Assembly: GCF_004360145.1 (NCBI RefSeq)
Contig: NZ_SAIT01000003.1
Coordinates: forward strand, 62,001-126,000
Reading direction: 5' to 3'
Origin: Aliiroseovarius marinus
GTDB taxonomy: Bacteria; Pseudomonadota; Alphaproteobacteria; Rhodobacterales; Rhodobacteraceae
DNA: 64,000 bases
Shown in pieces: positions 6,437-42,333 of the stretch (its first letter is position 1; each line of letters opens with the position of its first letter). The position numbers and the translations under genes were made by a program. Under the pieces are notes generated by a model. The model saw nothing but the letters and a program-made list of their open reading frames with translations, had not been told where the DNA came from and did not search any database.

Positions 6437-6511
6437 CTTGCCTCAAGTATCCCGGGGTGAATGCGCAACGCGCAGAGGGGCAGCGCCCCTCATAGGCTCA
6501 CGACGTGAGCC
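6437..6511. repeat. Structured intergenic repeat, copy A
   Basis: Lies between the convergent ends of the ClC gene and rsmA. It starts CTTGCCTCAAGTATCCCGGG, then has a GC-rich variable part, the hairpin GAGGGGC-AGC-GCCCCTC (6475-6491) and the hairpin GGCTCAC-GAC-GTGAGCC (6495-6511). The same order recurs at 16274, 20113 and 42206. The lead segment is nearly identical to copy D. Confidence 0.9.
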
Positions 6512-6522
6512 ACCGAACGCCT

Positions 6523-7359
6523 TTATCCCAACGCCCGCGACAAGGCGCAGAACGCTTCCACGTCAATCTCTTCGGCGCGTGATGTGGGCTTGATCCCGAC
6601 CGAGGTCAGTACGTCCTCGATCTCGGGATGCATGCCCTTCAAGGACGCTCGCAGCATTTTGCGCCGCTGCCCGAAGGCCTTGGCGACCACCGCTTGCAGT
6701 TTGCCCGCATCCGCCTCGAAACGGGGTTCGGGCAGAGCCTCAAGATGCACCACGGCCGAGTGGATTTTCGGCGGGGGTGTAAAGGCTTCGGGGGGCAGTT
6801 CCATCACGACACGAGGCGTGGTGCGCCACTGGGCCAGTACTGCCAAGCGCCCATATTTCTTCGATCCCGGCTGCGCAACAATGCGCTCGGCCACTTCCTT
6901 TTGGAACATCAGGGTCAGGCTGGACCAGGCAGGCGGCCAGCTTGGCGGCGTCAACCACCGCACCAAGAGCTCGGTGCCTACATTGTATGGCAGGTTGGCG
7001 ACGATGCGGATGGGGGGCGTCAGGTGTTCAAGCGGGTCCAGCTCTAACGCATCCGCATTCACGACCTCGAGCCGTCCCGGATAGGCGTCGGCAATCTCGG
7101 CCAACGGCGCCATCGCACGGCTGTCTTTCTCGACCGCGAGCACCTTGCGCGCGCCTTCGACCAGAAGCCCACGGGTCAGGCCACCGGGGCCGGGTCCGAC
7201 CTCCAACACGTCGCAGCCCGATAGATCCCCGGCCATGCGGGCGATTTTGGCGGTCAAGTTCAGGTCCAGCAGAAAGTTCTGGCCCAGAGATTTCTTGGCG
7301 ACCAGCCCGTGGGTGTTAATCACCTCGCGCAGGGGGGGCAGCCCGTCGATCTGGCTCAT
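6523..7359 (-). CDS. rsmA: 16S rRNA (adenine1518-N6/adenine1519-N6)-dimethyltransferase RsmA (KsgA)
   Basis: 278-residue SAM-dependent methyltransferase that dimethylates two adjacent adenines in helix 45 of 16S rRNA. Visible motifs are [11 protein letters not shown] near the N-terminus, the SAM-binding loop [16 protein letters not shown], the acidic loop LAVEKD, and the catalytic NLPYNV motif near residue 122. The C-terminal substrate-recognition domain ([25 protein letters not shown]) is complete. The ATG at 7359 overlaps the stop of pdxA by 4 bases (ATGA) and has AGGAG 8-9 nt upstream. It is the last gene of the lptF-lptG-lptD-surA-pdxA-rsmA run, the same order as in many proteobacteria. 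Confidence 0.96.
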
Positions 7360-8360
7360 GTGGTGCTCTCCTGTCGGCGGGCAAGGCCCATTTGGTGGGC
7401 CATGCGCAGGGCGTTGATCAAGGATGTGGCATCCGCAGCGCCGGTGCCCGCGATGTCATAGGCTGTGCCATGATCGGGCGAGGTGCGGACGAAGGGCAGG
7501 CCCAAGGTGACGTTGACACCGCCCGCAAAGTCGATCGTCTTGATCGGGATCAGCGCCTGGTCGTGATACATGCAGACCGCCGCGTCATAGCCTGCGCGCG
7601 CGCTGGCGTGGAACATCGTGTCGGCGGGCAGGGGACCCAGCAGGTCCAGCCCCTGAGCGCGCAGATCGTCGAGCAGGGGGGTGATCATGTCGATCTCCTC
7701 CATCCCCATCGCGCCGCCTTCGCCCGCGTGCGGGTTCAGGCCAGCAACGGCGATGCGCGGAGCGGTGTGGCCGAAATCGCGGATCAACGCGGCGTGGGTG
7801 GTGCGGATGACCTGTTCCAGCGTTTCGCGGGTCAGTGCAGCGGGCACCTCGGACAGGGCGATGTGGATCGTGGCGGGCACGACGCGCAGTTCGTCGCAGG
7901 CCAGCATCATCACGACATCGGCGTCGCCTGCCAGATGCGACAGGTATTCGGTGTGGCCGGGAAACGGAAACCCCGCCCCGTCCTTCAGCGCTTTCTTGTT
8001 GATCGGGTTGGTGCAGACGGCAAGCGCCTCTCCTGTCTGCGTCAGCTCCACTGCACGGGCGATCACGTCGATCACGGCTTGCGCTTGTTCAGATTGCGCC
8101 ACGCCGGGAACGCGTGGGGTGTGAAAGTCATGCGGCAATACCGGCAACGCCTCGGCGCTATGCGCTTCGGTGGGATGGTCGATCTGCGTGAACGCGATAC
8201 CTTCGGGCAGGTGGCGCGGGTCGCCGATCAGAAAGAACGGCACCTCTTCCTTCAAAACCGCAAAGGCCTTGGCGGCGATCTCGGGGCCGACCCCTGCTGG
8301 TTCGCCCATGGTCAAAGCCACGGGCGGGACAGGGGCGGACGCGCTGCTGTCAGCGGTCAT
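7356..8360 (-). CDS. pdxA: 4-hydroxythreonine-4-phosphate dehydrogenase PdxA
   Basis: 334-residue NAD-dependent enzyme of the DXP-dependent pyridoxal 5'-phosphate pathway; it oxidises 4-phosphohydroxy-L-threonine. Family signatures are [11 protein letters not shown] at the N-terminus, the metal-ligand histidines in FPGHTEYL and [13 protein letters not shown], and [13 protein letters not shown]. The ATG at 8360 overlaps the surA stop by 4 bases (ATGA), and its own stop overlaps rsmA, so translation is likely coupled across the three genes. Confidence 0.96.
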
Positions 8361-9649
8361 TGCGCGTCAAATTCCTCGATAAACGCGGCGGAGCGAAGCT
8401 CTTCCAGATAGGCGGTCGAGAAAGCCTGCAAGCGCTGGTTCTGCAGGCGCAGTTTCAGCTGATCGCGGCTGACATCCTCGGGCAATTCGCGGCTGCGCGA
8501 ACACAGCATCAGATAGACAAGGTTCTGTCCATTGGCCGATGTCAGCGCGGTCGATGCCTCGCCTTCATCCAGCTGCGCCAGCTCTACCGCATAGCGGGTC
8601 GGCAGCTCGCCCACGGGCACAGCTTCTTTTGCGATTTGCGCTTCGGTCGAACCGGGGAACAGGCCGAACAGATCGTTGCAGCTGTCTGTTTTGGCGCGGA
8701 TCTCAGCGGCTTGCGCAAGGGCTTCGGCGCTACGCCCCCCCGGGATCATCATTGCGGCGTATTCGACAGTGACATCTGCCGGTGTGGGGCGGTCAACTTC
8801 TTCGATGGCCCGCAGCTGGAAGACGGCGACACCGTTCTGAACCGGCACCGGGTCGGTCACGTGGCCGGGCTCCAAAGCCACGACCTGCGCGGCAACGGCG
8901 GGCGGCAGATCTGACAGGTCGGTCCAGTTCAGACGCCCGGAACGGCCGCTAGAGGCAGAGACAGAAGAGCGACGGGCCTCGGCCGCGAAGGCGCCCAATG
9001 TGGTGATTTCCGAGAACTGCGAGGCACGTGCGTTGGCCTCTTGCATGGCTTCGGGGTTTTCGGCTGCCAGAACGATTTCGGACAGCAACACGCGGGCGTT
9101 CTGTCCCGGCGCGGTCAGAGACAGCTGGCGGTCAATCTCGTCCTCGGTCACGTTGATGCGGCCCTGCCAGCGTTTGCTGACCACAGCGCGCCAGGCCATG
9201 CCGTTGGACACGAAATCACGGAAGGTTTCCGGGGCGACACCCGCCTGCGCGATGATCTTGTTGAACTCTTCGACCTTCAGGTTGAAACGCCCGGTAAACT
9301 CGGACATGCCCGCCAAGACATCTTCGGCGGTCACCGATACATCCTCGGCTTTGGCGGCCTGCTGCTGCAAGGCTTCGTCCATCAGCTGTTTCAACGCCAG
9401 TTCACGCAGGTTCCCCGGCGCGCGCAGAACGGTCAGAAACGCCATGCGCTGCGACAGCTCGTACGAGGTGATCACGCTGTCGTTGATCTTGGCGACAGGT
9501 TCGAAAATGTTTTGTGCCTGCGCAGGTGCCGCGCCCAGTCCGACCAGAGACACCAGACCGAATACCAGACCGGACGTCGCGCAAGTCCATGCCGAAGCGG
9601 TCGCTTTGCGCTGTGAAGTTTGCGCTTTAGATTGGCTATGAAATCCCAT
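8357..9649 (-). CDS. surA: Periplasmic chaperone / peptidylprolyl isomerase SurA
   Basis: 430-residue SurA-like protein that escorts outer-membrane proteins, including LptD, through the periplasm. The N-terminal signal peptide ends at AAPAQAQ (about residues 40-46). The SurA N-domain follows (NIFEPVAKINDSVITSYELSQRM), then one parvulin-type domain (DLPPAVAAQVVALEPGHVTDPVP...GVAVFQLRAIEE), then the C-terminal helix. Start at ATG 9649 is preferred: AGGAAA sits about 8 nt upstream and the signal peptide then has a sensible length. An in-frame start 28 codons upstream has no such support. It lies 71 bases behind lptD and overlaps pdxA by 4 bases. Confidence 0.92.
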   Translation of the reverse strand: MGFHSQSKAQTSQRKATASAWTCATSGLVFGLVSLVGLGAAPAQAQNIFEPVAKINDSVITSYELSQRMAFLTVLRAPGNLRELALKQLMDEALQQQAAKAEDVSVTAEDVLAGMSEFTGRFNLKVEEFNKIIAQAGVAPETFRDFVSNGMAWRAVVSKRWQGRINVTEDEIDRQLSLTAPGQNARVLLSEIVLAAENPEAMQEANARASQFSEITTLGAFAAEARRSSVSASSGRSGRLNWTDLSDLPPAVAAQVVALEPGHVTDPVPVQNGVAVFQLRAIEEVDRPTPADVTVEYAAMMIPGGRSAEALAQAAEIRAKTDSCNDLFGLFPGSTEAQIAKEAVPVGELPTRYAVELAQLDEGEASTALTSANGQNLVYLMLCSRSRELPEDVSRDQLKLRLQNQRLQAFSTAYLEELRSAAFIEEFDAQ

Positions 9650-9720
9650 CGGTATTTTCCTGTATCGCATAACGCTCGTAATTTCTGATCTCGATCCCTG
9701 GCGGTCCAATTTCGCGGGCC

Positions 9721-11871
9721 TTAGCCGTTGCATTTATTCACCGCTGCCCCGCGGCCGCTTCCAAATCCGATCAATTCGAATTGCAGACCAAAATCAGTTG
9801 TTGGCTCTACATTAATAGAGGTTGTGAAACGACGCGAGAGGGAAAGATCAACCGAAAGACATTCATTTCGGTATTCCAACCCGAAACTGGCGCGGGTCGC
9901 TTGTTTTTCCTCGACGTCAAAGCTGCCATCGGCCGTAATTGTCCAGAAATCCCCGACCTTCCACGCGCTGTCCAGCCGCAGCTCGTGGGTGGGGGTGGAG
10001 CGGTTTTCGGCGGCATCCTCGATCACCCAGATATGCGCCGCTGCGATCTGGAACTCGTCGGTCAGCCAGGCAGCACGGGTTTCAGATTTGGTCAGCCCGA
10101 AATCATCATCCAAAAGCGCACGCCCCTGAACCGAGACATGGCCACCAAAATTGACCGCAGCCCCCAAGAGCCAGTCAGAGTTCTGGCCCGCAAGGCCCGA
10201 GGCGTCGGTGAACTGGCCAAGGTCGACTTCACGGAAGACGCGGCCTGCAGCCAAGGTGAACCCCCAGCCCGATGGTGTGTGCCGTGTCCAGCTGAGGCCT
10301 ACGGCGGCCCGCAGTCCTTCCTCGCGTCGGTCGCTGCCCGGGAAGCGGTTCAGGTCAAACAGGTTGCCTTGGTCAAACTCGACGAACTGGCTGTCTTCAT
10401 TGGGAATATCCGCCCCCACCTGTTCGGACCATGCCAGAGCGGCAACGGGTTCCAGCACGTCGACCGTTCCGTTGCCGCCCACACGCGACAGCGGCCAGCG
10501 CAGGGTGACGCCAGCCGACGGCGTGGCAAAGCTTTGCTCGGTCTGATAGCGGCTGTCCTGTTCGATCCAATAGATATCCGCGTCCAAAGCGGCCTGACCT
10601 TCGATGACCAGTCCCGCTGGACCGATCCAATCGCGCCGCCAGTCCAGCCCGGCGCCGATGCGCGCCACGTCGCGGCCCAGAATGTCCAACTGGCTTTCGC
10701 GGAAATGGGCCTGCCACGACAGGGTCGTGCGCAGCTCGCCACCGATAAAGCCACCGGGATGGAAGCGGCGCTCATAGAACGCATCAATCTGCGCAAAAGG
10801 AAGTTGGTCCGAGATCGGCAGCTCTGAGGCACGCAGCGTGTCGTAGCGGGTGATGCCCGCGAAGGCGAACTCGTCCCGGCGCGCGCGCATTACCTCGATC
10901 GCGTTGCGCAACCGGTCCTGATCGGAATAGCCGTAATCCAGCAGATATCCGGGGTCCGAGACCTCTTGCAGCTGGAAGGACAGGGTGAAGTCGTGCGGTA
11001 GCTGGAACTCACCTTCCCCGAATACATAGAAACGTGTTTCGTCTTCCAGAATGCTGTCGCGGCTGACGGCGCCGTCAATCTGGATGTCCCCAGCGCGGAA
11101 GGCCTGCCGATAGCGCAGCTCCAATGTGCGGGTTTTGTCAGCGATATAGGGCGAGACCGTGATGTCGGCGTGATCTCCAAGCTTGACGAAATAGGGAACC
11201 GAGATCCCGAAGCCAAGGGTCGTGTTGGTGCGGATCTTCGGCGTCAGAAAGCCGGTCGCGCGATCCAGCGTCGGGTCAGGCAGGCGCAGGCGGGGCAGGT
11301 AGAAGATCGGCACATCCGCCACGCGCAGTTGAGCGTGGTGGAAGTAAAGCTGGCGCTCTTTTTCATCGTGGACCACACGCTCGGCACGGATCTGCCACAG
11401 CGGCACCGGGTTCTTCGCGCAGACATGACACGAGGACGCCGCGACACGCGACAGCTGAGTATAGCGGTCCTGCACGCGATTGATCTGGGCGGCGGCGATC
11501 TGCAACTGCTGGTCCAGCACCAGACGCGCGCTGGTCAGGATGCCATTGCGGAGGTCTGCGGACAGGGTCGCCTCGTCCGCCACCAAAACCGTGCCGTCGG
11601 GGCGGGTGATGGTGATCGGGCCTATGATGGACAGTGTATTCGTGGCCTTATCATAGCTGACCTTGGTTGCGGTCAGACGCGTGCCTTCGAACAACACCAC
11701 GACATTGCCGTCGGCCACCAGGCCCCCATTGCCCACAACGCGCACATGGTCCGCGATCAAGCTGGCGGTCTGGGCCGCGACCGGGGCTGCTGTCAGTGCG
11801 ATGGTGCTGACAGACCCTGCAAGCAGGGCCAGCGCCAAACGTCCGGCGCGCAGGTGCTGTGACAGGCCCAT
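9721..11871 (-). CDS. lptD: LPS-assembly protein LptD
   Basis: LptD is the outer-membrane beta-barrel that inserts lipopolysaccharide into the outer leaflet. The product is 716 residues with a signal peptide (LALALLAGSVSTIALTAAPVAAQ). An OstA-like N-domain follows (SLIADHVRVVGNGGLVADGNVVVLFEG), then the LptD barrel with ARFLTPKI-like segment DRATGFLTPKIRTNTTLGF. Four cysteines are well placed for the family's inter-domain disulfides: a CHVC pair behind the N-domain, and two near the C-terminus (ECLS and KCNG). The ATG at 11871 shares bases with the lptG stop (TGATG), which fixes the start. surA, its chaperone, follows directly. Confidence 0.94.
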   Translation of the reverse strand: MGLSQHLRAGRLALALLAGSVSTIALTAAPVAAQTASLIADHVRVVGNGGLVADGNVVVLFEGTRLTATKVSYDKATNTLSIIGPITITRPDGTVLVADEATLSADLRNGILTSARLVLDQQLQIAAAQINRVQDRYTQLSRVAASSCHVCAKNPVPLWQIRAERVVHDEKERQLYFHHAQLRVADVPIFYLPRLRLPDPTLDRATGFLTPKIRTNTTLGFGISVPYFVKLGDHADITVSPYIADKTRTLELRYRQAFRAGDIQIDGAVSRDSILEDETRFYVFGEGEFQLPHDFTLSFQLQEVSDPGYLLDYGYSDQDRLRNAIEVMRARRDEFAFAGITRYDTLRASELPISDQLPFAQIDAFYERRFHPGGFIGGELRTTLSWQAHFRESQLDILGRDVARIGAGLDWRRDWIGPAGLVIEGQAALDADIYWIEQDSRYQTEQSFATPSAGVTLRWPLSRVGGNGTVDVLEPVAALAWSEQVGADIPNEDSQFVEFDQGNLFDLNRFPGSDRREEGLRAAVGLSWTRHTPSGWGFTLAAGRVFREVDLGQFTDASGLAGQNSDWLLGAAVNFGGHVSVQGRALLDDDFGLTKSETRAAWLTDEFQIAAAHIWVIEDAAENRSTPTHELRLDSAWKVGDFWTITADGSFDVEEKQATRASFGLEYRNECLSVDLSLSRRFTTSINVEPTTDFGLQFELIGFGSGRGAAVNKCNG

Positions 11872-12968
11872 CAGCCGTCCTCCAGATGCAATAGAATGCC
11901 CAGTGGCAAAAGGATCGCGGCGATCGGGGGCGCCCACGCGGCCAGAAGGATCGGGATTTGCCCGTTCTCTCCGAGGATCTGTGCGAAGTTACGAATGAAA
12001 TAGGCGCCAAAGCCCATCATCAGGGCAAAAAGAACCATGATCCCAGTGCGCCCAAACCGGGTATGGCGCATGGTAAAGCCCGCGCCAATCAGGACCATCG
12101 CGACCAAGAAGATCGGCATGGCCAGCTCCATATGCAGCCATACGCGGTGGGCACGGGCCGAAAAGCCTGCGGCCTCGAGTTGCCCAATGAAGCGCGGCAG
12201 ATCCCAGATCGAGATCGAGCTGGGTTTGCCAAAGCTGTCGCGGATCTGTTCTTGCGTCAGGTTCGAGGCCAGTGTGAACATCGGATATTCAATGGCGGTG
12301 TCTTCGGGATTGGCGTCGCTGATCAGATCCCAGACCTTCGCGCCACGAATGGCCCAATGACCGGGTTCCAGCTTGGCGCTTGCCGCTTCGATGCGCAGCG
12401 TGGGCGGACCTTCCGGTGCGAAGGAAAAGAAGGTGACGTCAAAAAGTTCGGTCCCTTCAAGATTAGAGCGATCTGCCCGGATCACGGTCTGGCCTGTTTC
12501 GTTGCCCTGACGCAGCCAGACGCCATCAGAGGCAATGGACAGAACAGAAGCGCCGCCGCCCTCGTATTGCGCTGCGATCCGTTCGTATTTCTTGGTCGTG
12601 CCCGCGGTGATCGGATTGCCGATGGCGACGGCCAGAATGCCAAACAGGAATACCGTAACCACAGGCGAGATAAGCGTCATCAGGGCCGAGCGGCCCGCTG
12701 CCCGTGTCACCACCATTTCCGAGCTGCGCGCAAGGCTCAGGAACATCCACAACGTGGACAGGATCACGATCAAGGGCAGGATGCGGTACATCCAGACCGG
12801 TGCATTCAGCAGCGTCAGCCCCAGCACGTTCGAAAACCCGACGGATGCGGCATCAAATTTGCGCATACTCTCGACCATATCCAGCAGCACAAAGATGATC
12901 GCCAGCACGACGAGCATGCTGAAGAAGGCGCGCAGGAAGCGGCGGGCGATATATAGATGCAGTCTCAT
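11871..12968 (-). CDS. lptG: LPS export ABC transporter permease LptG
   Basis: 365-residue inner-membrane permease of the LptB2FG transporter that pulls LPS out of the inner membrane. Six membrane segments are visible: three N-terminal (residues about 10-30, 55-80, 95-120) and three C-terminal (about 275-350), flanking a periplasmic beta-jellyroll domain. The segment SSEMVVTRAAGRSALMTLISPV is the family coupling region. Start codon overlaps the lptF stop by 4 bases (ATGA), and the stop overlaps lptD. Called LptG rather than LptF because it is the second of the pair and ends directly before lptD. Confidence 0.93.
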   Translation of the reverse strand: MRLHLYIARRFLRAFFSMLVVLAIIFVLLDMVESMRKFDAASVGFSNVLGLTLLNAPVWMYRILPLIVILSTLWMFLSLARSSEMVVTRAAGRSALMTLISPVVTVFLFGILAVAIGNPITAGTTKKYERIAAQYEGGGASVLSIASDGVWLRQGNETGQTVIRADRSNLEGTELFDVTFFSFAPEGPPTLRIEAASAKLEPGHWAIRGAKVWDLISDANPEDTAIEYPMFTLASNLTQEQIRDSFGKPSSISIWDLPRFIGQLEAAGFSARAHRVWLHMELAMPIFLVAMVLIGAGFTMRHTRFGRTGIMVLFALMMGFGAYFIRNFAQILGENGQIPILLAAWAPPIAAILLPLGILLHLEDG

Positions 12969-14128: not shown

Positions 14129-14260
14129 GTTCCCCCCTGTGAGCGCAACATCTTGTGGTCAGGTTTCTAAACCATCCGACCGGCGGGGAAAACTGCTATC
14201 TGGTCAAACCTGTACGGGGCGGCTACCAATGGCAGAAACCTGCCAAACAAAGGACCCGTC

Positions 14261-15733: not shown

Positions 15734-15737
15734 GCGC

Positions 15738-16259: not shown

Positions 16260-16273
16260 CCATACCTCTTCCT

Positions 16274-16343
16274 CTTGCCCAAAATACCTCGGGGTGAGGC
16301 CGCAGGCCGAGGGGCAGCGCCCCTTAGGCTCACCCCGTGAGCC
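16274..16343. repeat. Structured intergenic repeat, copy B
   Basis: Lies between the convergent ends of holC and the aspartic protease gene. The order is CTTGC lead, CTCGGGG, GGCC-GCA-GGCC hairpin (16298-16308), GGGGC-AGC-GCCCC hairpin (16311-16323) and GGCTCAC-CCC-GTGAGCC hairpin (16327-16343). It is nearly identical to copy C through the first hairpins. The final stem is perfect and has a different loop in each copy. Confidence 0.9.
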
Positions 16344-16369
16344 GCCGTAAGCATTGCCTATGTCTGCTG

Positions 16370-17626: not shown

Positions 17627-17628
17627 CT

Positions 17629-20049: not shown

Positions 20050-20070
20050 GCCACGTTTCTATAAGACAAA

Positions 20071-20106
20071 AAGGCCGTTCGGGGAAACTCGGGCGGCTTT
20101 TTTTAT
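20071..20106 (+). terminator. Rho-independent terminator of ndk
   Basis: Stem AAGGCCGTTCG (20071-20081) pairs with CGGGCGGCTTT (20090-20100) using two G-U pairs; the loop is 8 nt. It is followed by TTTTTT at 20098-20104 and lies 22 bases behind the ndk stop. Confidence 0.9.
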
Positions 20107-20112
20107 TTTCCT

Positions 20113-20182
20113 CTTGCGAAAAATACCTCGGGGTGAGGCCGCAGGCCGAGGGGCAGAGCCCCCCAGGCTCACACCGTGAGCC
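20113..20182. repeat. Structured intergenic repeat, copy C
   Basis: Lies between the ndk terminator and the convergent TfoX-domain gene. It has a CTTGC lead, CTCGGGG, GGCC-GCA-GGCC hairpin, GGGGC-AGA-GCCCC hairpin (about 20150-20162) and GGCTCAC-ACC-GTGAGCC hairpin (20166-20182). It matches copy B closely except in the hairpin loops. Confidence 0.9.
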
Positions 20183-33334: not shown

Positions 33335-33474
33335 GAACGCTCGAAATCTAAAATCTATCTAAAATGGAGAAGATCTGATCTCGTTTGTCGCACAGCCCTG
33401 AAGGATGTGTCCATATAAAAGACCTTGGGCGCCGCGAACAGCACCACGGTGCGCTGGAAGTGGAAACTTGGGCC

Positions 33475-33517
33475 AAAACAACAAAAGCGCCCCAAGCTGG
33501 AGCGCTTTTGTTGTTTT
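33475..33517 (-). terminator. Long hairpin terminator behind tRNA-Asn
   Basis: Left arm AAAACAACAAAAGCGC (33475-33490) pairs perfectly over 16 bp with GCGCTTTTGTTGTTTT (33502-33517), with three further pairs inside an 11-nt loop region. It lies about 20 bases behind the 3' end of tRNA-Asn, which is transcribed leftward, and has T-rich flanks on both strands, so it could act in both directions. Confidence 0.8.
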
Positions 33518-33537
33518 TCAACCTCTTAGAGGAAGGT

Positions 33538-33612
33538 TGGCTCCGGCGGTAGGGATCGAACCTACGACCAATTGATTAACAGTCAACTGCTCTACCGCTG
33601 AGCTACGCCGGA
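33538..33612 (-). tRNA. tRNA-Asn (anticodon GTT)
   Basis: 75 nt with encoded CCA. The acceptor stem TCCGGCG pairs with CGCCGGA, the discriminator is G, the D-arm has GCTC/GAGC, the anticodon stem is TTGAC/GTCAA-like with loop TGTTAAT (anticodon GTT), and the T-arm contains GGTTCGATCC. A long hairpin terminator follows at 33475-33517. Confidence 0.97.
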
Positions 33613-33660
33613 ACATGGGGGGCTTATAGCCAGCGCGATTCCGGGCCGCAAGAGGCGAAA

Positions 33661-34587: not shown

Positions 34588-34671
34588 CAGCTGTCCTTTC
34601 ACTGTGTTTCCACCTTCCTGACGCCGCACCCTGCGCTTGGCAAGCGCGTCGCCGCGTCATAGGGTCGGGCC

Positions 34672-36024
34672 ATGTCGCAGACGAACCGCCCCCACGGCGC
34701 CAATTGGCGCGATTTCGCATGGCTAAAGCAGTTCATGCCGCGCGGGCTGTACGGACGAGCGGCGCTGATTCTGATTGTGCCGATCGTGTCGCTGCAATTG
34801 GTGGTGTCCGTTGTGTTCATTCAACGCCATTTCAACCGGATTACAGTGCAGATGACGGATGCTGTGGTCGCCGAAGTGTCGCTGATTGTCAGTCAGGCCA
34901 ATGCCTCCAAGACGGTGGATCAAGCTCTTGAGGCTGCACGACGCATTGCCACGCCGCTGGACACCCGGGTCGCTTTGCCCAGCGATCCCGTCACCACACA
35001 ACGACAACTTTCTGATTTCACCGGGACTCGAGTCGTCAGCACGTTAGAGCAGGGGCTTTCTGACCTGATCGGGGTTGATCTGGAAACCAATCGGGCTTTG
35101 GTGACCATGGCTATCTCTACAGACCATGGCATCCTGCGCGTTGTGCTGAATCGCGACCGCGTCTCGGCCACCAACCCGCATCAATTGCTGGTCCTGATGG
35201 TTGTCACGGGATTTCTGATGACCTTGATTGCCTATCTTTTTTTACGCAACCAACTGCGTCCCATCCGCCGTTTGGCCCGCGCGGCCGAGGCCTTCGGGAA
35301 GGGGCAGGTGCTTCCGTACAGATTGGCGGGCGCGACCGAGGTCCGGGCGGCTGGCAAAGCCTTTTTGGACATGCGCTCGCGCATTGATCGGCAGATTGAA
35401 CAGCGCACCTTGATGCTGTCGGGCGTCAGCCACGATTTACGGACGCCTTTGACGCGGTTGCGTCTAGGGTTGTCGATGCTCGAGGATGACGCGCGCGATG
35501 ATCTTCAGCGCGACGTGGATGAAATGGAGCGTCTGGTCGACGGATTTCTGGGATTCGCGCAGGCCGATGCGCTGGAAGACGCGCCCGAGCAGGTGGATCC
35601 GGTCGAATTTGTGCATCACTTGGCTGAAAACGCCCAGCGGGCCGGAATGAATGTGACGCTGGGCGAGGTCGCGGATCTTGATGAACGTCCTCTAAGGCGC
35701 GCCTCTCTGGAACGGGCGTTGGACAATCTGCTAGGCAATGCCACACGCTATGGCTCTCGCGCGCGCCTGTCCTTGATCCAAGGGCGGGGCGATTTGCGGT
35801 TCGTGATCGAAGACGACGGACCGGGCATTGCCGTTGAAGACCGCGAGGAGGCGTTGAAACCCTTCGCCCGTCTGGACAAAGCCCGCAACCAGAACAAGGG
35901 GTCCGGCGTTGGGCTGGGTCTGTCTATCGCCAGCGACATTGCACGCGGCCACGGGGGGCATCTGCGGCTGGGGGACAGCGCGGATCTGGGCGGTTTGAAG
36001 GTCGAACTTGTGCTGCCGCTGTAA
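34672..36024 (+). CDS. EnvZ-like sensor histidine kinase (orphan in this window)
   Basis: 450 residues. Two membrane segments (about 29-50 and 166-190) flank a periplasmic sensor domain of about 115 residues. A HAMP domain follows (LRNQLRPIRRLARAAEAFGKG), then HisKA with phospho-accepting His in GVSHDLRTPLTRLRL near residue 253, and HATPase with N-box LDNLLGNATRYG, G1 EDDGPGI and G2 GSGVGLGLSIA. All catalytic motifs are intact. No response-regulator gene lies next to it, so its partner must be elsewhere. In this group EnvZ-like kinases often pair with an OmpR-type regulator that is separately encoded. Confidence 0.88.
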   Translation: MSQTNRPHGANWRDFAWLKQFMPRGLYGRAALILIVPIVSLQLVVSVVFIQRHFNRITVQMTDAVVAEVSLIVSQANASKTVDQALEAARRIATPLDTRVALPSDPVTTQRQLSDFTGTRVVSTLEQGLSDLIGVDLETNRALVTMAISTDHGILRVVLNRDRVSATNPHQLLVLMVVTGFLMTLIAYLFLRNQLRPIRRLARAAEAFGKGQVLPYRLAGATEVRAAGKAFLDMRSRIDRQIEQRTLMLSGVSHDLRTPLTRLRLGLSMLEDDARDDLQRDVDEMERLVDGFLGFAQADALEDAPEQVDPVEFVHHLAENAQRAGMNVTLGEVADLDERPLRRASLERALDNLLGNATRYGSRARLSLIQGRGDLRFVIEDDGPGIAVEDREEALKPFARLDKARNQNKGSGVGLGLSIASDIARGHGGHLRLGDSADLGGLKVELVLPL

Positions 36025-36093
36025 GGTGGTCGCAAACAAGCTCGACACGGCGCAATTTGACCTGTCTTCTGGACCAAATCGAAAGGAATGCCT

Positions 36094-36849
36094 ATGGCCG
36101 TCACTGCCTCTATGCCCAATATTGCCCACTGGAATGAACGTGTTGATATGGCCGCGGCCTTTCGCTGGACCGCGCGTCTGAACATGCACGAGGGCGTCGC
36201 GAACCATTTCAGCCTCGCGGTGAATGACAGCGGTACCAAGTTCCTGATGAACCCCAACCAGATGCATTTCGCGCGAATCCGGGCCTCGGATCTGCTGGAA
36301 ATCGACGCGGATGATCCCAGCACGATGGACCGCCCGGACGCGCCGGACCCGACCGCCTGGGGTCTGCACGGGGGCGTTCACCGCCACTGTCCCCACGCGC
36401 GCTGCGTGATGCATGTGCACTCGATCCACGCGACGGTTCTGGCGTCCTTGGCGGACAGCAATCTGCCGCCCATCGACCAGAACTGCGCGACGTTCTACAA
36501 CCGCTATGTGATCGACGATGGCTATGGCGGCTTGGCGTTCGAGGATGAGGGCGAACGCTGTGCCGCTTTGCTAACCGACCCCAAGGTAAAGGTCATGATC
36601 ATGGGCAATCACGGAGTATTGGTGATCGGAGACAGCGTCGCCGACACGTTCAACCGCCTCTACTATTTCGAACGCGCGGCCGAGACCTATATCCGTGCCC
36701 TGCAAACCGGCCAGCCCTTGCGTGTGCTGTCAGATGAGATCGCCGAGAAAACCGCGCAGGAGCTGGAAGAGTACCCCGAGCAGGGGGATCGGCACATGGC
36801 CGAGCTGCGGGCGATTTTGGACGAAGAAGGCAGCAACTACGCCACATAG
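36094..36849 (+). CDS. Class II aldolase/adducin-family protein
   Basis: 251 residues. The zinc-binding motif HVHSIHATVLASL (about residues 109-121) and the C-terminal metal ligand in MGNHGVLVIGD are present, and the start RWTARLNMHEGVANHFSLAV is typical of the family. The family covers fuculose- and rhamnulose-phosphate aldolases, ribulose-5-phosphate epimerases and many uncharacterised decarboxylases or dehydratases, so the reaction cannot be named. ATG 36094 is preferred because AAAGGA lies 6 nt upstream; an ATG two codons earlier sits too close to it. Confidence 0.8.
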   Translation: MAVTASMPNIAHWNERVDMAAAFRWTARLNMHEGVANHFSLAVNDSGTKFLMNPNQMHFARIRASDLLEIDADDPSTMDRPDAPDPTAWGLHGGVHRHCPHARCVMHVHSIHATVLASLADSNLPPIDQNCATFYNRYVIDDGYGGLAFEDEGERCAALLTDPKVKVMIMGNHGVLVIGDSVADTFNRLYYFERAAETYIRALQTGQPLRVLSDEIAEKTAQELEEYPEQGDRHMAELRAILDEEGSNYAT

Positions 36850-36867
36850 GCACCGTAGGGTAAATGG

Positions 36868-36901
36868 CCTTCGTGATGCGCAGGATGCGGCATCACGAAG
36901 G
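36868..36901. terminator. Hairpin between convergent aldolase and reductase genes
   Basis: Perfect 12-bp stem: CCTTCGTGATGC (36868-36879) and GCATCACGAAGG (36890-36901), with a 10-nt loop. It is placed to stop transcription from either side; no clear T-run on either strand. Confidence 0.65.
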
Positions 36902-36907
36902 ACCTTC

Positions 36908-37939
36908 TCAGGCGACCTTTACGACCACTTTGCCGAAGCTGTTGCCAAGCAAGACATCGTTCAGCGCTTGGGGCGCGTTCTCGATGCCGTCGACAACTTG
37001 TTCTTTATAGTGGACTTTTCCTTCCGCCAGCCAGCCAGTCATGTCCTTCACGAACTCCTGATACGTGCTGATCGGGAAGCTGTCGAAAATGATGAAACCC
37101 TGCACTTTGACCTTCATCCGCAGGATCGTGCTCATGATCATGGGGCCGAAATCCGGCCCGTCCGGCAGACCTGTCAGGTTGTACCACGCCACCACGCCGC
37201 AAACCGGCATACGTGCGAACGGGTTGAGCAAGGGCAGGACGCCATAGAGGACTTTTCCGCCCACATTGTCGAAATAGACATCAATGCCGTCGGGGCAGGC
37301 GGCCTTAAGCTGTTCGGCAAAATCGTCGGCTTTGTGGTCAATGCAGACATCAAACCCAAGGTTCTCGACAACGTGCGCGCATTTCTCGGCGCCTCCGGCG
37401 ATGCCGACGGTTCGGCACCCTTTGATCTTGGCGATCTGACCTACGGTGGCCCCAACCGGACCTGAGGCTGCCGCGACCACGACGGTTTCACCAGGCTTGG
37501 GCTCTCCGATCTTCAGAAGCCCGGCATAGGCGGTGTATCCCGGCATGCCCAGAATGCCCAATGCCCACGACGGATTGCTGGGGGTTGCGCCCAAATTAAC
37601 GACCTCGGTCCCGTCCGAGATTGCGTAATCCTGCCAGCCGCTGCCCGCGAGCACACGGTCCCCCACGACGAATCCGTCAAGATTCGAGGCCATGACCTCA
37701 GCAACCACCTGACCGGTCATCACCCCGCCGATTTTCACCGGCTCGGCATAGGATTTCGCGTCATTCATGCGACCACGCATATAGGGGTCGATCGACAGGA
37801 ACTCGGTCCGCAACAGCATTTCGCCGTCTTTCGGGGTTGGAATGTCGACGCTTTCAAGGCGCAGAGTATTTTCGTCGGGAAGCCCCACGGGGCGTTCTGC
37901 CAGGACGATGCGGCGGTTTTTGGTCGCGGTTTGTGGCAC
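36908..37939 (-). CDS. NADP-dependent medium-chain reductase (CurA / prostaglandin-reductase-like)
   Basis: 343-residue zinc-independent MDR protein that reduces activated double bonds (enones) with NADPH. Features are FLSIDPYMRGRM, the family segment GWQDYAI, GILGMPGYTAYAGL, the nucleotide-binding loop AAASGPVGATVGQIAKIKGCRTVGIAGG, and VDVYFDNVGG-like DVYFDNVGGKVLYG. The start is a GTG at 37939 with AGGAGC about 5 nt upstream. The frame is open further upstream through the tRNA gene, but that extension is an artefact. It lies about 100 bases downstream of the tRNA and may share its transcript. Confidence 0.88.
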   Translation of the reverse strand: MPQTATKNRRIVLAERPVGLPDENTLRLESVDIPTPKDGEMLLRTEFLSIDPYMRGRMNDAKSYAEPVKIGGVMTGQVVAEVMASNLDGFVVGDRVLAGSGWQDYAISDGTEVVNLGATPSNPSWALGILGMPGYTAYAGLLKIGEPKPGETVVVAAASGPVGATVGQIAKIKGCRTVGIAGGAEKCAHVVENLGFDVCIDHKADDFAEQLKAACPDGIDVYFDNVGGKVLYGVLPLLNPFARMPVCGVVAWYNLTGLPDGPDFGPMIMSTILRMKVKVQGFIIFDSFPISTYQEFVKDMTGWLAEGKVHYKEQVVDGIENAPQALNDVLLGNSFGKVVVKVA

Positions 37940-38037
37940 GGGTTGCTCCTGTCTTTGTGACAAAGATGCTAGCCGTGAACGCACGCCCGTGCGAGCGGAT
38001 AATCCGCTTTTTCTGCGCAGTTCCAGTAAGGGAATGA

Positions 38038-38113
38038 TGGTAGGCCCGGCAGGATTCGAACCTGCAACCAAAGCGTTATGAGCGCTCTGCTCTAACCGTT
38101 GAGCTACAGGCCC
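38038..38113 (-). tRNA. tRNA with CAT anticodon, probably tRNA-Ile2 (or elongator tRNA-Met)
   Basis: 76 nt with encoded CCA. The acceptor stem GGGCCTG pairs with CGGGCCT (with one wobble), the D-arm has GCTC/GAGC, the anticodon loop is CTCATAA and the T-loop is GGTTCGAATCC. The GGGCC acceptor stem resembles alphaproteobacterial tRNA-Ile2, whose C34 is changed to lysidine so that it reads AUA. Elongator Met is the alternative; initiator Met is excluded because the acceptor ends pair. Confidence 0.9.
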
Positions 38114-38248
38114 ACTGCTACTCTTGGTGGCGCTATTGCTAGCAAACTGGTCCGTGGGGTCAAGCAAGCCGTAGACTCTTTCTGCCCCTTACGCTATCGC
38201 AGGCGCAGAATTTTTGCCGCGCGACCACAGCCACCATGGGGGACAGAC

Positions 38249-39298
38249 ATGAGCGACGCATCCAAGGGCATCACATACGCAGACGCAGGCGTGGATATCG
38301 ACGCGGGCAACGCGCTGGTTGAGCGCATCAAACCAGCCGCAAAACGCACCAACCGTCCGGGCGTGATGGCCGGTCTTGGCGGCTTCGGCGCGCTGTTTGA
38401 TCTGAAGGGCGCGGGGTTCAAGGATCCGGTTCTGGTCTCGGCCACCGATGGCGTGGGCACCAAGCTGCGCATCGCGATTGACACCGGCAATGTGGACACG
38501 ATCGGCATTGATCTGGTGGCCATGTGCGTGAACGACCTTGTGTGTCAGGGTGCGGAACCTCTGTTCTTCCTCGACTACTTTGCGACGGGCCGTCTTGAGA
38601 CCGACAAAGCCGCGCGGATCATCGAAGGCATCGCCAAGGGCTGTGAACTGTCGGCCTGCGCGCTGATCGGCGGCGAAACCGCAGAAATGCCGGGCATGTA
38701 TGAAGATGGTGACTTTGACCTCGCCGGTTTCTCGGTCGGCGCGATGGAGCGTGGGACCGACCTGCCCAAAGGCGTCAAAGAAGGCGATGTGCTGCTGGGT
38801 CTGGCCTCGGACGGCGTGCATTCGAACGGCTATTCGCTGGTGCGCAAACTGGTCGAGGTCTCGGGCCTTGGCTGGGACGCAGATTGCCCGTGGGACGCCA
38901 ACATCACGCTGGGCGAGGCTCTGCTTGCCCCGACACGCTTGTACGTGCGTCAGGCGCTGGAAGCCGTGCGGGCAGGGGGCGTGCATGCGCTGGCCCATAT
39001 CACCGGCGGCGGCCTGACCGAAAACCTGCCACGCGTTCTGCCAGAAGGGCTGGGTGCCTTGGTCGATCTGGACGAATGGGAGCTGCCGCCCGTCTTCAAA
39101 TGGCTGGCTGCAACAGGTGGCATGGATCAGGCCGAGATTCTGAAAACCTTCAATGCCGGCCAAGGCATGGTGCTGGTGGTTGACGCGCAGGCCGCACAAC
39201 CGCTGACCGATCTGCTGACCAACGCGGGCGAGACCGTGACCCAGCTGGGCCGCATTCAGAAGGGCGAAGGCGTCAGCTATCTGGGATCGCTTCTGTGA
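38249..39298 (+). CDS. purM: Phosphoribosylformylglycinamidine cyclo-ligase PurM
   Basis: 349-residue enzyme of purine synthesis: FGAM plus ATP gives AIR. Family signatures are [21 protein letters not shown] at the N-terminus, [63 protein letters not shown] and [16 protein letters not shown]. Start at ATG 38249 matches the family; the longer frame upstream overlaps the tRNA region. purN follows with a 4-base overlap (GTGA), so this is a purMN operon. Confidence 0.96.
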
Positions 39299-39900
39299 GC
39301 GACACCGCCAAGAAACGGGTCGCCATCCTGATCTCAGGCGGCGGCTCGAACATGGTGACACTGGCTGAGTCGATGACCGGGGATCACCCCGGGCGTCCTT
39401 GCCTTGTGCTGTCGAATGTGCCCGACGCCGGGGGGCTGGCCAAGGCAAAGGCGATGGGCATTCCCACCGCTGTCGTCGATCACCGTGACTTCAAAGGCGA
39501 TCGCGAGGGGTTCGAGGCCGCTTTGAACGCCGTTTTGGAAGACGCTAACCCCGACATCATCTGTCTGGCCGGTTTCATGCGGATCCTGACCGAAGGATTC
39601 ACCGGCCACTGGGCTGGGCGCTGCCTGAACATCCACCCGTCGCTTCTGCCGAAATACAAGGGTCTTCACACCCATCAGCGTGCGCTGGATGCGGGCGATG
39701 CCGAAGCAGGGTGTTCCGTCCACGAGGTTACCGCCGAACTGGATGGTGGCCCGATCCTTGGACAAGCCCGCGTGCCGGTCGCGCCGGGCGACACGGCAGA
39801 CACGCTGGCCGCGCGGGTTTTGGTGCAGGAACACAAACTGTACCCTGCCGTGCTGCGCCGGTTTGCGGACGGGGACAAAACCCCGATCCTGCTGCCCTAA
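39295..39900 (+). CDS. purN: Phosphoribosylglycinamide formyltransferase PurN
   Basis: 201-residue enzyme transferring a formyl group from 10-formyl-THF to GAR. It shows the N-terminal phosphate-binding [11 protein letters not shown], the folate-site segment [26 protein letters not shown] with catalytic Asn and His, [15 protein letters not shown], and the catalytic Asp segment [18 protein letters not shown]. The start is a GTG inside the purM stop (GTGA). Confidence 0.95.
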
Positions 39901-40006
39901 AGTCGCAGTCGTTCGGCATCATGGCGCAAGGCTTCCCTTTCAAGGCGTTTCCCCTTAAACCCGGGCGAAACCCGTATCTGGTACGGTAAAGAGCAGGTAG
40001 AATTAT

Positions 40007-41167
40007 ATGATCACGATCACGACCACCGAGGCCCTGGAAGAATTTTGCATCCGCGCGACCTCGCACCCTTATGTGACCGTTGATACCGAGTTCCTGCGCG
40101 AACGGACCTACTACTCCAAGCTGTGCCTGATCCAGCTGGCTGTGCCGGGCAATGACGAACAGGACGCCGTTCTGGTCGATCCGCTGGTCGATGGCCTGTC
40201 GCTGGAACCGCTCTATGAGCTCTTTCGCGATGAACGCGTCGTCAAAGTGTTCCACGCCGCCCGTCAGGATCTGGAAATCTTCTTTGTCGAGGCTGGCGTC
40301 TTCCCACGCCCGCTGTTTGACACACAGGTCGCTGCGATGGTCTGCGGCTTTGGCGATCAGGTCGGCTATGAGACGCTGGTGCGCAAGATCGCACGGGCCC
40401 AGCTGGACAAATCCAGCCGCTTCACCGACTGGTCGCGCCGCCCGCTGACCGACGCCCAGAAGAAATACGCGCTGGGGGATGTGACCCACCTGCGTGGTAT
40501 CTACGAATATCTGTCGGACGAGCTGGACAAATCGGGCCGCGCCCATTGGGTGCAAGAAGAACTGACCAGTTTGACCAGCCCCGAGACCTATATCATTCAC
40601 CCGGAAGATGCGTGGAAGCGTTTGAAAACACGCACGAATTCAGGTCGTTTCTTGGGCGTCGCGAAAGAGCTTGCACGCTTCCGCGAAGGCTATGCCCAGT
40701 CGCGCAACATTCCCCGCAACCGGGTGATGAAGGACGATGCGCTGCTAGAACTCGCCTCGACCAAGCCGCGTTCCCTGCAGGAGCTTGGCCGCTCGCGCCT
40801 GCTTCTGCGCGAGGCGCGCAAGGGGGAAGTGGCCGAGGAAATCCTGCGCGCCATCGCAGTAGGGTTGGAGATGCCGCAAGATCAGCTGCCCAAGGCACCC
40901 GATCGCTCGAAGGAAAAGCTGCAAGTAAACCCGGCCTTGGCCGACCTGCTGCGCGTGCTGCTGAAAGCGCGCTGCGAGCAAGAGAAAGTCGCACAGAAAC
41001 TGATCGCCTCAGCCGCGGATCTGGACGCCTTGGCTGCCGGGAAACGCGATGTCGCGGCTTTGACCGGGTGGCGCGCCGAGGTCTTCGGCGACGACGCCCT
41101 GCGCCTGTGCGAAGGCAAGCTTGCGCTGGCCGCCAAGGGCCAACGCGTCGAGGTTTTCGAAGTCTAA
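40007..41167 (+). CDS. rnd: Ribonuclease D
   Basis: 386-residue 3'-5' exoribonuclease of the DEDDy type, acting in tRNA 3' maturation. The exonuclease residues are visible: VTVDTEFLRE (first Asp and Glu), VFHAARQDLEIFF (Asp), and the Tyr/Asp pair in KKYALGDVTHL. HRDC-type helical domains follow (NIPRNRVMKDDALLELASTKPRS and EVAEEILRAIAVG). The length matches the family. It stands alone, with 106 bases between purN and its start and 7 bases to the convergent lipoprotein gene. Confidence 0.94.
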   Translation: MITITTTEALEEFCIRATSHPYVTVDTEFLRERTYYSKLCLIQLAVPGNDEQDAVLVDPLVDGLSLEPLYELFRDERVVKVFHAARQDLEIFFVEAGVFPRPLFDTQVAAMVCGFGDQVGYETLVRKIARAQLDKSSRFTDWSRRPLTDAQKKYALGDVTHLRGIYEYLSDELDKSGRAHWVQEELTSLTSPETYIIHPEDAWKRLKTRTNSGRFLGVAKELARFREGYAQSRNIPRNRVMKDDALLELASTKPRSLQELGRSRLLLREARKGEVAEEILRAIAVGLEMPQDQLPKAPDRSKEKLQVNPALADLLRVLLKARCEQEKVAQKLIASAADLDALAAGKRDVAALTGWRAEVFGDDALRLCEGKLALAAKGQRVEVFEV

Positions 41168-41174
41168 GTAAGCC

Positions 41175-41654
41175 TTAGCGGCGCGCCGAACGGCTGCTAT
41201 TGGCGCCCACGACGCGGATCGTGCGAACGCCCTGAAGCTTGATGTCCGACACGAAGTGCCCGACATAGACCTCGCGCTGTTTCGGTCGACCGGTCTGGGT
41301 GCGATAATAGGGCTCGGTGATCCGGAACATATAGGTCAGCACACCGTTTTCAGCCCGCTCGAAGTTCTCGGGCACCAGTTCGGCATCCCAATATCCAAGG
41401 CGCGGCGGCAAACCTTTCGCGCGAATGATGGCGCCCCCCTGAGCGCGCAGAATCTCAAGCTCGACAACCTCGGCCACAAGCCCGCGGGTGTCCTGATCAT
41501 CCAAAAAGCCGCCTTCCGGGATCAGCGCGACTTCCTCGACGCCATCCGAACTAAACCAATTGAACGGATTGAGGTTCACACTTCCACCGCAGGCCGTCAG
41601 TGCCAGCAATGATGCGGTCAGCAAGGTAGGGGCAGCAAATCGGCGGAAATTCAT
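41175..41654 (-). CDS. Small hypothetical lipoprotein
   Basis: 159 residues. The lipoprotein signal MNFRRFAAPTLLTASLLALTAC ends at a lipobox Cys (residue 22). A short Asn/Ser region follows (GGSVNLNPFNWF), then a compact domain with EVALIPEGGFLDDQDTRGLVAEV and YMFRITEPYYRTQTGRPKQREVYVGHFVSDIKL. No known enzymatic motif was found. The strong AAAGGAG before ATG 41654 fixes the start. The domain recurs in Rhodobacteraceae without assigned function. Divergent from sufE. Confidence 0.75.
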   Translation of the reverse strand: MNFRRFAAPTLLTASLLALTACGGSVNLNPFNWFSSDGVEEVALIPEGGFLDDQDTRGLVAEVVELEILRAQGGAIIRAKGLPPRLGYWDAELVPENFERAENGVLTYMFRITEPYYRTQTGRPKQREVYVGHFVSDIKLQGVRTIRVVGANSSRSARR

Positions 41655-41784
41655 GTCGGCTCCTTTATCTATGCCCAAAGGGTTAGCCCATGTCAGCGCC
41701 TTTGAAAAGACAGCAATCCGCACCAAGGCTGGACCTTTGGCCGCGCAAGGCTTAGGTGATGGCAAAAGCACGAAAGGATCCCCC

Positions 41785-42195
41785 ATGGCCAGCCCAGCAT
41801 TTGAAGAGATTGTCGAGGATTTCGCCTTCTTGGATGACTGGGAAGATCGCTATGCGACGGTCATCGATATGGGTAAATCGCTGCCCGATATGGATCCGGC
41901 CCTGAAAGTGCCCGCCACCAAGGTCGAAGGCTGCGCCAGCCAAGTCTGGTTGCACCCGGAAATCACCGATGGAAAGTTCAGCTTTTCGGGCGACAGTGAT
42001 GCGATGATTGTGAAGGGCCTGATCGCTGTCCTGTCCGCGCTCTATACCGATCAGCCCGTGTCCGAGGTCGCCAAGATCGACGCTGCTGCCGAACTCGCGC
42101 GCCTTGGCCTGAACGAGGCCCTGTCCTCGCAACGCTCGAACGGGCTGCGCGCCATGGTCGAACGGATTCGCCAATACGCGTCAGAAGCGGCCTGA
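41785..42195 (+). CDS. sufE: SufE-family cysteine desulfuration protein
   Basis: 136-residue SufE-like sulfur-acceptor protein that receives persulfide sulfur from SufS for Fe-S cluster building. The active-site Cys lies in VEGCASQVWLHPEI (about residue 50), and family helices flank it (FEEIVEDFAFLDDWEDRYATVIDMGKS; IVKGLIAVLSALYTDQPV). The ATG at 41785 has AAAGGA upstream. No other suf gene is in the window, so this is a detached member. Structured repeat copy D follows. Confidence 0.92.
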   Translation: MASPAFEEIVEDFAFLDDWEDRYATVIDMGKSLPDMDPALKVPATKVEGCASQVWLHPEITDGKFSFSGDSDAMIVKGLIAVLSALYTDQPVSEVAKIDAAAELARLGLNEALSSQRSNGLRAMVERIRQYASEAA

Positions 42196-42205
42196 TCCTC
42201 TTTTT

Positions 42206-42333
42206 CTTGCCTCAAGTATCCCGGGGTTCGAAGGCTTCTTGGAAACTGTCCGGGGGACAGTTTCGCCTGAGAACGGGCGGAGCCCAAGCCGTAGGCGCGG
42301 GGGCAGAGCCCCCACAGGCTCACGCAGTGAGCC
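42206..42333. repeat. Structured intergenic repeat, copy D (extended)
   Basis: Lies between the convergent ends of sufE and the DUF1638 gene and reaches into the latter's last codons. The lead matches copy A. It carries an extra hairpin GAAACTGTCC-GGG-GGACAGTTTC (42242-42264), then GGGGGC-AGA-GCCCCC (42299-42313) and GGCTCAC-GCA-GTGAGCC (42317-42333). The TCA at 42320-42322 inside the last stem is the stop codon of the DUF1638 gene on the minus strand. Confidence 0.88.

Follow-up and report, generated by a model that had tools for sequence, protein, structure and literature searches.

A 64-kb stretch of the genome of Aliiroseovarius marinus (the window; positions 62001-126000 of contig C2, in a genome of 3.13 Mb and 33 contigs) contains four copies of a short folded element. 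The element belongs to a set of copied elements of this kind that lie at gene 3′ ends across the Rhodobacteraceae in the broad sense. Its copies consist of a conserved lead followed by GC-rich hairpins. They are located after stop codons in both orientations, are rarely accompanied by a canonical terminator, and are present at some orthologous junctions and absent from others. The function proposed here, with moderate confidence, is that of a two-sided 3′-end block that serves as a terminator substitute and message protector. If this is true, an entire family that includes model phototrophs and marine roseobacters ends messages with an unannotated, copyable cassette where intrinsic terminators are absent, and terminator prediction in the Rhodobacteraceae is incomplete.

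In such a block, two or three stacked GC hairpins, transcribed from either side, would form the obstacle that ends the message. RNA polymerase would be released at the element, probably with the help of Rho, as no proper T-run follows the hairpins. In addition or instead, 3′ exonucleases may halt at the hairpins, which would result in a stable 3′ end. One element could then serve both genes of a convergent pair, replacing the canonical terminator.

Structure of the element

In the sense of the lead, the element is made up of a lead of about 27 nucleotides (nt) ending in YGGGG, a variable hairpin 1, a fixed hairpin 2 (AGGGGCARMGCCCCT) and an optional hairpin 3. The lead opens with pyrimidine-rich sequence, the pre-lead (such as CATTTT, CTTCCT or CTTCTT), after which come T[TG]G, a stretch that varies, AAATA, mostly TCC or CCT, the base Y and the G-tract. 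The consensus of hairpin 2 is AGGGGC-ARM-GCCCCT. Hairpin 3, usually GGCTCAC-NNN-GTGAGCC, is present in 41 of the 143 copies that were parsed from loci of the own genome, the genus and the family.

A sequence-only reading of the window had described four copies with their parts in a fixed order, and all four are present (Table 1). With the lead pattern CTTGCNNNAANTAYCYCGGGG, these four are the only matches in the window even when three mismatches are allowed, against 0.52 expected, and none of 100 shuffles reaches four. The parts and the order given by that reading stand, but it had overlooked hairpin 1, the variable one that lies after CGGGG and before the GGGGC hairpin. Likewise, the GGCTCAC/GTGAGCC stem is indeed the same in all four copies, with the loops GAC, CCC, ACC and GCA, but family-wide this hairpin is optional rather than fixed. 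The genome has 23 exact copies of this stem with a wide range of loops, and the stem also varies by compensatory change, e.g., GGCTCGCGAAGCGAGCC.

Hairpin 1 is the most diverse part, with 104 distinct sequences in 155 copies. A stem was found in 95 of these 104 sequences, and 583 of its 608 pairs are Watson–Crick pairs. The remaining pairs, in the lead sense, are 13 G-T, 6 A-C and 6 other mismatches. As the sequence varies between copies while the pairing stays, the stem has been kept. The difference between 13 G-T and 6 A-C pairs, obtained with symmetric scoring, is too weak to be used for the choice of strand. In copy 4, the place of hairpin 1 is occupied by a nested repeat of about 60 nt, which looks as if it were an inserted element in its own right.

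The lead also precedes other classes of hairpins, chiefly the CGCCGGAGGC class; the TTGYNNNAAATAYCY pattern has 60 matches compared to one for its reversed control. There is a junction at which another genus carries the GGGG class and the own genome the CGCC class (loci L125 and L228, respectively). This association of one lead with differing hairpins suggests a larger superfamily in which hairpins are exchangeable. L243, L247, L248, L250, L259, L262 and L083 combine this lead with CGCCGGAGGC or a similar hairpin and with more hairpins. The lead flavours TTCCT/ACCT and ATTTT/ATCC are each linked, but this linkage is broken in congeners, so that a structural origin of the linkage was rejected.

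Placement after stop codons

Genes were called with a codon-usage caller trained on the window; the simplicity of this caller and the choice of the best-scoring copy limit the counts that follow. Outside genes, 64 copies were found in the own genome, of which 42 lie in convergent, 20 in tandem and two in divergent gaps. This set derives from 67 lead matches. The three genic ones were left out, two of them lacking hairpins and the third (L046) being a full element over a called 5′ end. Among the 126 copies with hairpins at loci of the own genome, the genus and the family, 77 are convergent, 44 tandem and five divergent. In the 42 convergent gaps of the own genome, the median distance from the stop of the plus-strand gene to the lead is 16 nt, and it is at most 20 nt in 29 of them. 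On the other side, the last parsed hairpin lies at a median of 10 nt from the stop of the minus-strand gene (38 own convergent copies with a parsed hairpin).

The sequence-only reading had counted 12 convergent gene pairs in the window, where the codon-based caller gives 11. It had placed all four copies in such gaps, which is correct: four of the 11 are occupied, and the window's tandem and divergent gaps are all free of copies. Outside the window, this exclusiveness breaks down. Strictly convergent placement was rejected on the basis of the 42 of 64 own copies, the 77 of 126 copies from all loci and the two of 10 annotated plasmid places that are convergent. Copies inside genes, or placed regardless of gene orientation, had been named as an observation that would speak against the family; none of the 126 hairpin-bearing copies is called genic, whereas a match on a plasmid falls within the annotated gene bchB.

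In twenty 20-kb stretches of the own genome, 67 of the 376 gaps are convergent, and convergent gaps hold 21% of the intergenic bases. Of 311 non-overlapping gaps, 60 are convergent, and relative to this frequency, own copies are strongly enriched in convergent gaps (p = 8e-16). The outcome is more modest when transcript 3′ ends are used as the yardstick. Here, 42 of 62 copies are convergent, while 54% would be expected if tandem gaps count only from 60 nt upward (p = 0.02), 48% if they count from 20 nt upward (p = 0.0015) and 36% if all of them count (p = 4e-7). Because convergent gaps hold two 3′ ends, part and perhaps most of the convergent enrichment amounts to a location after a stop codon. 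The main placement rule is therefore read here as "after a stop codon", and an extra preference for convergence beyond this rule is possible.

In tandem gaps, both polarities occur, as a two-sided block requires. Over all loci, the hairpins lie beside the upstream stop in 24 cases and the lead in 20 (p = 0.65); in the own genome, these numbers are 14 and 6 (p = 0.12). Among 12 plasmid regions, 10 of which are annotated, seven matches lie between same-strand genes, two between convergent genes and one inside bchB. The seven same-strand matches have their hairpins toward the upstream gene in three cases and their lead in four. One plasmid copy (L273, 1475-1555, on plasmid e of Cereibacter sphaeroides) is found between gap and fba, in a same-strand run near a ribulose-bisphosphate carboxylase gene.

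Another candidate reading is a common intrinsic terminator that works in one direction only and ends the gene flanking the hairpins; in that sense, the order is stop codon, hairpins, CCCC..GG-TATTT. It is consistent with this that the hairpins of all four window copies lie within 27 nt of the stop of the minus-strand gene or overlap it, that the own tandem copies lean 14 to 6, and that a separate terminator-like hairpin belongs to the plus-strand gene beside copy 3. Moreover, copy 3 has on the minus strand a weak, terminator-like stem of five pairs before ATTTTT, where 0.6 such sites are expected in shuffles of the stretch. Nevertheless, this explanation is disfavoured and very doubtful, as 20 of the 44 tandem copies from all loci have the opposite polarity. 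In addition, the T-run in this sense is usually only TATTT, four bases past the CCCC tract, and conserved lead bases run on beyond it. In the lead sense, the last hairpin is followed by sequences such as ACCGAACGCCTT, GCCGTAAGCATT, ACCAAAAACAGC and CGCTCAGTGCGG, from which a canonical T-run is absent. The combination of a GC hairpin with a direct T-run and a single polarity, by which canonical intrinsic terminators are recognized, was thus not found in the element.

Rarity of terminators and presence or absence at orthologous junctions

Canonical terminators were scored as a hairpin plus TTTT, and the window together with the twenty 20-kb stretches served as background. In convergent gaps of 40-260 nt, a canonical terminator is present in 19 of 29 element-free gaps and in five of 39 gaps with an element (Fisher p = 9e-6). 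In seven of those 19, the terminator is found in both senses. For convergent gaps of at least 21 nt, the numbers are 23 of 42 and six of 42, respectively (p = 2e-4); as the rule overlooks the hairpin next to copy 3, the latter figure is at least seven of 42. Since convergent gaps with an element are mostly devoid of a canonical terminator, the element probably stands in for terminators. This scarcity, the two polarities and the position after stop codons lead to the proposal of a two-sided 3′-end block. The sequence-only reading had suggested bidirectional transcription barriers, stabilisers of mRNA 3′ ends or protein-binding sites. Its first two roles meet in such a block, which fits best; binding of a protein to the DNA is kept as a rival and is discussed below.

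The junctions orthologous to those of copies 1 and 4 were compared between the own genome and 10 congeners. At the copy-1 junction, the element is present in five of 11 genomes, while four have a short gap of tens of bases and two a longer, unrelated sequence. At the copy-4 junction, it is present in six of 11 (degenerate in one) and absent from five. Two junctions that were flagged by a lax lead test and have no hairpins (L154 and L184) were counted as empty by eye. In the reverse comparison, the own genome has an element at both orthologous flanks for 11 of 28 congener loci and for three of 27 parsed loci from other genera, two of the 29 (L126 and L127) being unparsed and left out. Lead flavour and hairpin 1 may differ wholly between species at one site. 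At the copy-4 site, for example, the own genome and one congener (G002) have a long hairpin 1 and another (G010) a short one. From this pattern of presence and absence, it appears that copies have also been gained by copying or have repeatedly been lost. If the proposed function is correct, known junctions with and without a copy are natural experiments.

The same pattern is also what would be expected from a selfish or domesticated miniature mobile element, comparable to repetitive extragenic palindromes (REPs) or miniature inverted-repeat transposable elements (MITEs), that is moved by some enzyme and survives mostly after stops, where it does least harm, its structure serving mobility rather than gene expression. 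The low number of shared flanks (just 11 of 28 and three of 27), the modules that vary at one site, such as hairpin 1 at the copy-4 site, and the head-to-head pairs described below would all agree with this, and nearly perfect palindromes with a wobble-free Y-R pair (see below) would suit a structure of single-strand DNA. However, the Y1 transposase family PF01797 is absent in the own genome and found in only seven of 80 family genomes, other transposase families not having been searched. In addition, copy 1 is without a phage match and matches only two plasmid records. Random insertion should moreover favour long, terminator-bearing gaps at least equally, and the opposite was found. As to the terminal inverted repeats and target-site duplications typical of MITEs, the two ends of an element are unlike in sequence, and no close empty site was found at which a duplication could show; these observations weigh neither way. 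A mobile element is considered a possible, if unlikely, explanation.

Several observations weigh against a two-sided 3′-end block. A number of the same-strand plasmid places look co-transcribed, i.e., gap-fba of the cbb genes in Cereibacter sphaeroides, iolC-iolD and acsF-puhE, and full termination between such neighbours would be harmful. G-U pairs are few in hairpin 1, with 13 of 608 in the lead sense and six in the other sense, which is unusual for selection at the RNA level. The deficit of terminators could partly mean that the element entered short gaps that never held one. In none of the 11 element-free junctions at the copy-1 and copy-4 loci was a canonical terminator found with the same rule. 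Furthermore, for two congener elements, the own junction has no sequence between the two tblastx matches. Nothing visible replaces the missing element in these cases, which indicates that it is dispensable.

Coupling between the lead and hairpin 2

The lead base before the G-tract (Y) and the middle loop base of hairpin 2 (R) form the combinations C-G or T-A. With neither base constrained, they are complementary in 150 of 155 copies. Of the five misfits, only L067 is genuine; the other four arose where the nested repeat was wrongly parsed, and A is the base in their actual loops. In a cleaned set of 143 copies, 142 are complementary, T-G and C-A do not occur and the sole exception is G-A. This cleaned set assumes that R is A or G, an assumption that the set of 155 copies does not make. 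The cleaning removed only rows with a CGGAG loop; seven rows with a second G-tract of three bases, all starting with TTC, were treated as misparses of the nested repeat. In the alignment of 35 copies, the covariation of Y and R is 0.958 compared to 0.469 in shuffles, none of 500 being as high. When the partner columns are slid by one to three positions, the score is at most 0.479 and there is no two-sided change. In a comparison of columns over 126 copies, which took in the lead, the loop and the tail but not hairpin 1, no other pair outside the lead comes close to Y-R.

As the neighbouring columns show no coupling, Y-R lies outside an ordinary helix; a helix of this kind was rejected on the uncoupled adjacent columns and the low scores of the slid partners. 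A history of two subfamilies is disfavoured as well. Each of six hairpin-1 sequences is found, unchanged, with C-G in some copies and with T-A in others, and one of the six is also that of the G-A exception; both main lead flavours likewise carry both states. Linkage by descent alone is therefore unlikely. Nevertheless, most T-A copies belong to the own genus, and T-A may thus have had few origins. A second coupling concerns the length of the G-tracts: lead and hairpin 2 agree in 136 of 143 copies, and when the copies with 4/4 tracts are set aside, they still agree in 32 of 39. Tract lengths partly follow two spacer classes (TGA..GA and A..), and the equality is for that reason weaker evidence.

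The wobble-free Y-R coupling suggests a tertiary contact within a folded strand. In one tentative and rather unlikely model, the lead G-tract would run along the GGGG-CCCC stem of hairpin 2 in a three-stranded knot, with hairpin 1 as the turn and Y paired to R. Both couplings would follow from this arrangement, because it brings Y to the loop. The knot would then be a compact family-wide fold of RNA or single-stranded DNA at gene ends, blocking enzymes from both sides, with hairpin 1 as a swappable cassette in its turn. Kink-turn, quadruplex and kissing-loop readings were weighed by eye and dropped. The scarcity of wobble pairs leaves open that the folded form would be single-stranded DNA, and the Y-R coupling across a hypervariable hairpin offers a clean handle on whether the element acts as RNA or as single-stranded DNA.

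Alternatively, the element could be a site in double-stranded DNA, where the lead would bind a nucleoid or topology protein at the place where supercoils meet between convergent genes, the hairpins being extruded or incidental. Gyrase binds some REP arrays in E. coli. The enrichment in convergent gaps over the gap frequency and the occurrence of the lead with other hairpin classes behind it are in line with this. The same holds for a lead flavour that differs between species at one site, as if it tracked a trans-acting factor, with few copies available per congener. Yet a folded strand most easily accounts for the Y-R coupling and for G-tracts of equal length, the pairing of hairpin 1 is kept despite sequence change, and 20 of the 64 own copies lie in tandem gaps. 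Such a DNA site is regarded as improbable.

Distribution of the element

A covariance model was built from the 35 aligned copies. It gave 68 matches in the own genome and 25-145 per genome in 15 congeners, and the stems are kept well past the four copies of the window, in agreement with the dispersed structured family that the sequence-only reading had expected. In the own genome, the lead pattern has 18 exact matches compared to none for its reverse, and 77 compared to 14 with up to three mismatches. Of 80 family genomes, each from a different genus and the own genome among them, 60 have at least one match; up to 66 candidates were scored per genome, so that high counts are lower bounds. Ten stretches that match an exact pattern come from Rhodobacter capsulatus, Rhodobacter viridis, Sinirhodobacter and Marivita; from these carrier names, the family is taken to be the Rhodobacteraceae in the wide sense.

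Outside the family, the model had no matches in nine genomes from other families of the class. Of 190 genomes of the class, three gave matches. Two of them are the own genome and one of the two further family genomes in the set; the third belongs to another family and gave two weak matches. The best locus of the latter genome has two leads head to head, with loop base A behind TGGGG, and its two family mates had no matches. At this locus (L239), the two leads constitute an inverted repeat of about 25 bases. Head-to-head elements or leads are also found in the own genome (C1:412585/412633, C3:99471/99519 and C6:5607/5751).

Plasmid matches amount to 28 rows from 27 distinct records, in Paracoccus, Cereibacter (including Cereibacter sphaeroides), Salipiger, Leisingera, Loktanella, Ruegeria and others. 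Under 26 of the 28 rows there is no annotated feature in an incomplete gene table, one record is unannotated and one match is the one in bchB. A phage origin of copy 1 was rejected as no phage match was present. Copies are unevenly spread over the own genome, since a 400-kb sample holds three lead-like gaps where about nine are expected from the genome mean. Contig C6 (239 kb) carries 14 of 65 copies compared to five expected (p = 0.0003, uncorrected, tallied by hand per contig).

Comparison with known elements

REPs, bacterial interspersed mosaic elements and REP doublets forming hairpins (REPINs), which are GTAG-tagged and moved by REP-associated tyrosine transposases (RAYTs), resemble the present element in being short, palindromic, intergenic, mostly located after genes, mosaic, sometimes head to head and present in tens to hundreds of copies; the 68 own matches, intergenic and near gene ends, fall within this description. 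Here, however, two or three hairpins follow a long conserved lead, and the Y-R coupling is added. No conserved GTAG or CGTC column exists in the 35 aligned copies, and the Y1/RAYT transposase domain PF01797 has no matches in the own genome. The seven of 80 family genomes that do have it contain 1, 0, 0, 25, 0, 1 and 10 elements. Membership of the REP/RAYT system was rejected on these grounds. REPs in general are described as lying mostly between convergent genes or genes in the same direction, and CGTC-tagged intergenic palindromes of alphaproteobacteria are said to have no dedicated transposase (PMC3733652). The latter share with the present element that they are alphaproteobacterial intergenic palindromes; they differ in their CGTC tag, and the text consulted mentions neither Rhodobacter nor Paracoccus (PMC3733652).

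Bidirectional Rho-independent terminators are also GC hairpins between convergent genes, with one element for two genes. In contrast to these, the present element has no flanking A- and T-tracts, and it has several hairpins, a conserved lead and a dispersed family of copies. Intercistronic hairpins that stabilise mRNA, such as the one in the puf operon of Rhodobacter, are known as single sites and not as a repeat family. They likewise lie between genes, where they stop 3′ exonucleases, and some plasmid copies of the present element lie between apparently co-transcribed genes. The comparison with them is one of description.

With the models of Rfam 15, only two tRNAs in the window reach the gathering threshold, and nine element loci gave two sub-threshold matches only, so that no known RNA family could be assigned at threshold. 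One match, of mir-193 to the element at L116 (1528-1602), scored 32.4 bits compared to a threshold of 55 and was taken as chance. No description of the element was found in open-licence literature, an absence that is weak evidence.

Copies in the window

The coordinates of the four copies and of two further features are listed in Table 1.

Table 1. Features of the window. Y and R are the coupled bases of the lead and of the loop of hairpin 2.
Feature	Position	Strand	Pre-lead and lead	Hairpin 1	Hairpin 2	Hairpin 3	Remarks
Copy 1	6431..6511	+	pre-lead CATTTT 6431-6436; lead CTTGC..CGGGG 6437-6457, Y=C 6453	6458-6475 (variable)	AGGGGCAGCGCCCCT 6476-6490, R=G 6483	6495-6511	called stops 6418 (+) and 6523 (-)
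Copy 2	16268..16343	+	pre-lead CTTCCT; lead 16274-16294, Y=C 16290	16295-16309	16310-16324, R=G 16317	16327-16343	called stops 16259 (+) and 16370 (-)
Terminator-like hairpin with T-run	20068..20109	+					of the + gene, outside the element, directly before copy 3; 16-pair stem, consensus scan
Copy 3	20107..20182	+	lead 20113-20133, Y=C 20129	20134-20148	20149-20163, R=G 20156	20166-20182	called stops 20049 (+) and 20194 (-)
Copy 4	42200..42333	+	lead 42206-42226, Y=C 42222	42227-42298 (long region with nested repeat)	GGGGGCAGAGCCCCC 42299-42313, R=G 42306	42317-42333	overlaps called end 42320 of - gene
Nested hairpin repeat, about 60 nt	42227..42290	+					TTCGAAGGCTTC...GGAGCCC, in copy 4

The hairpin directly before copy 3 is the one that the stricter hairpin-plus-TTTT rule misses. 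The nested repeat of copy 4, or a variant of it (TTCGAAGGC..GGAAACTGTCCGGGGGACAGTTTCG..GGAGCCC), is also found at the hairpin-1 position in L008, L061, L069, L070, L071 and L075.

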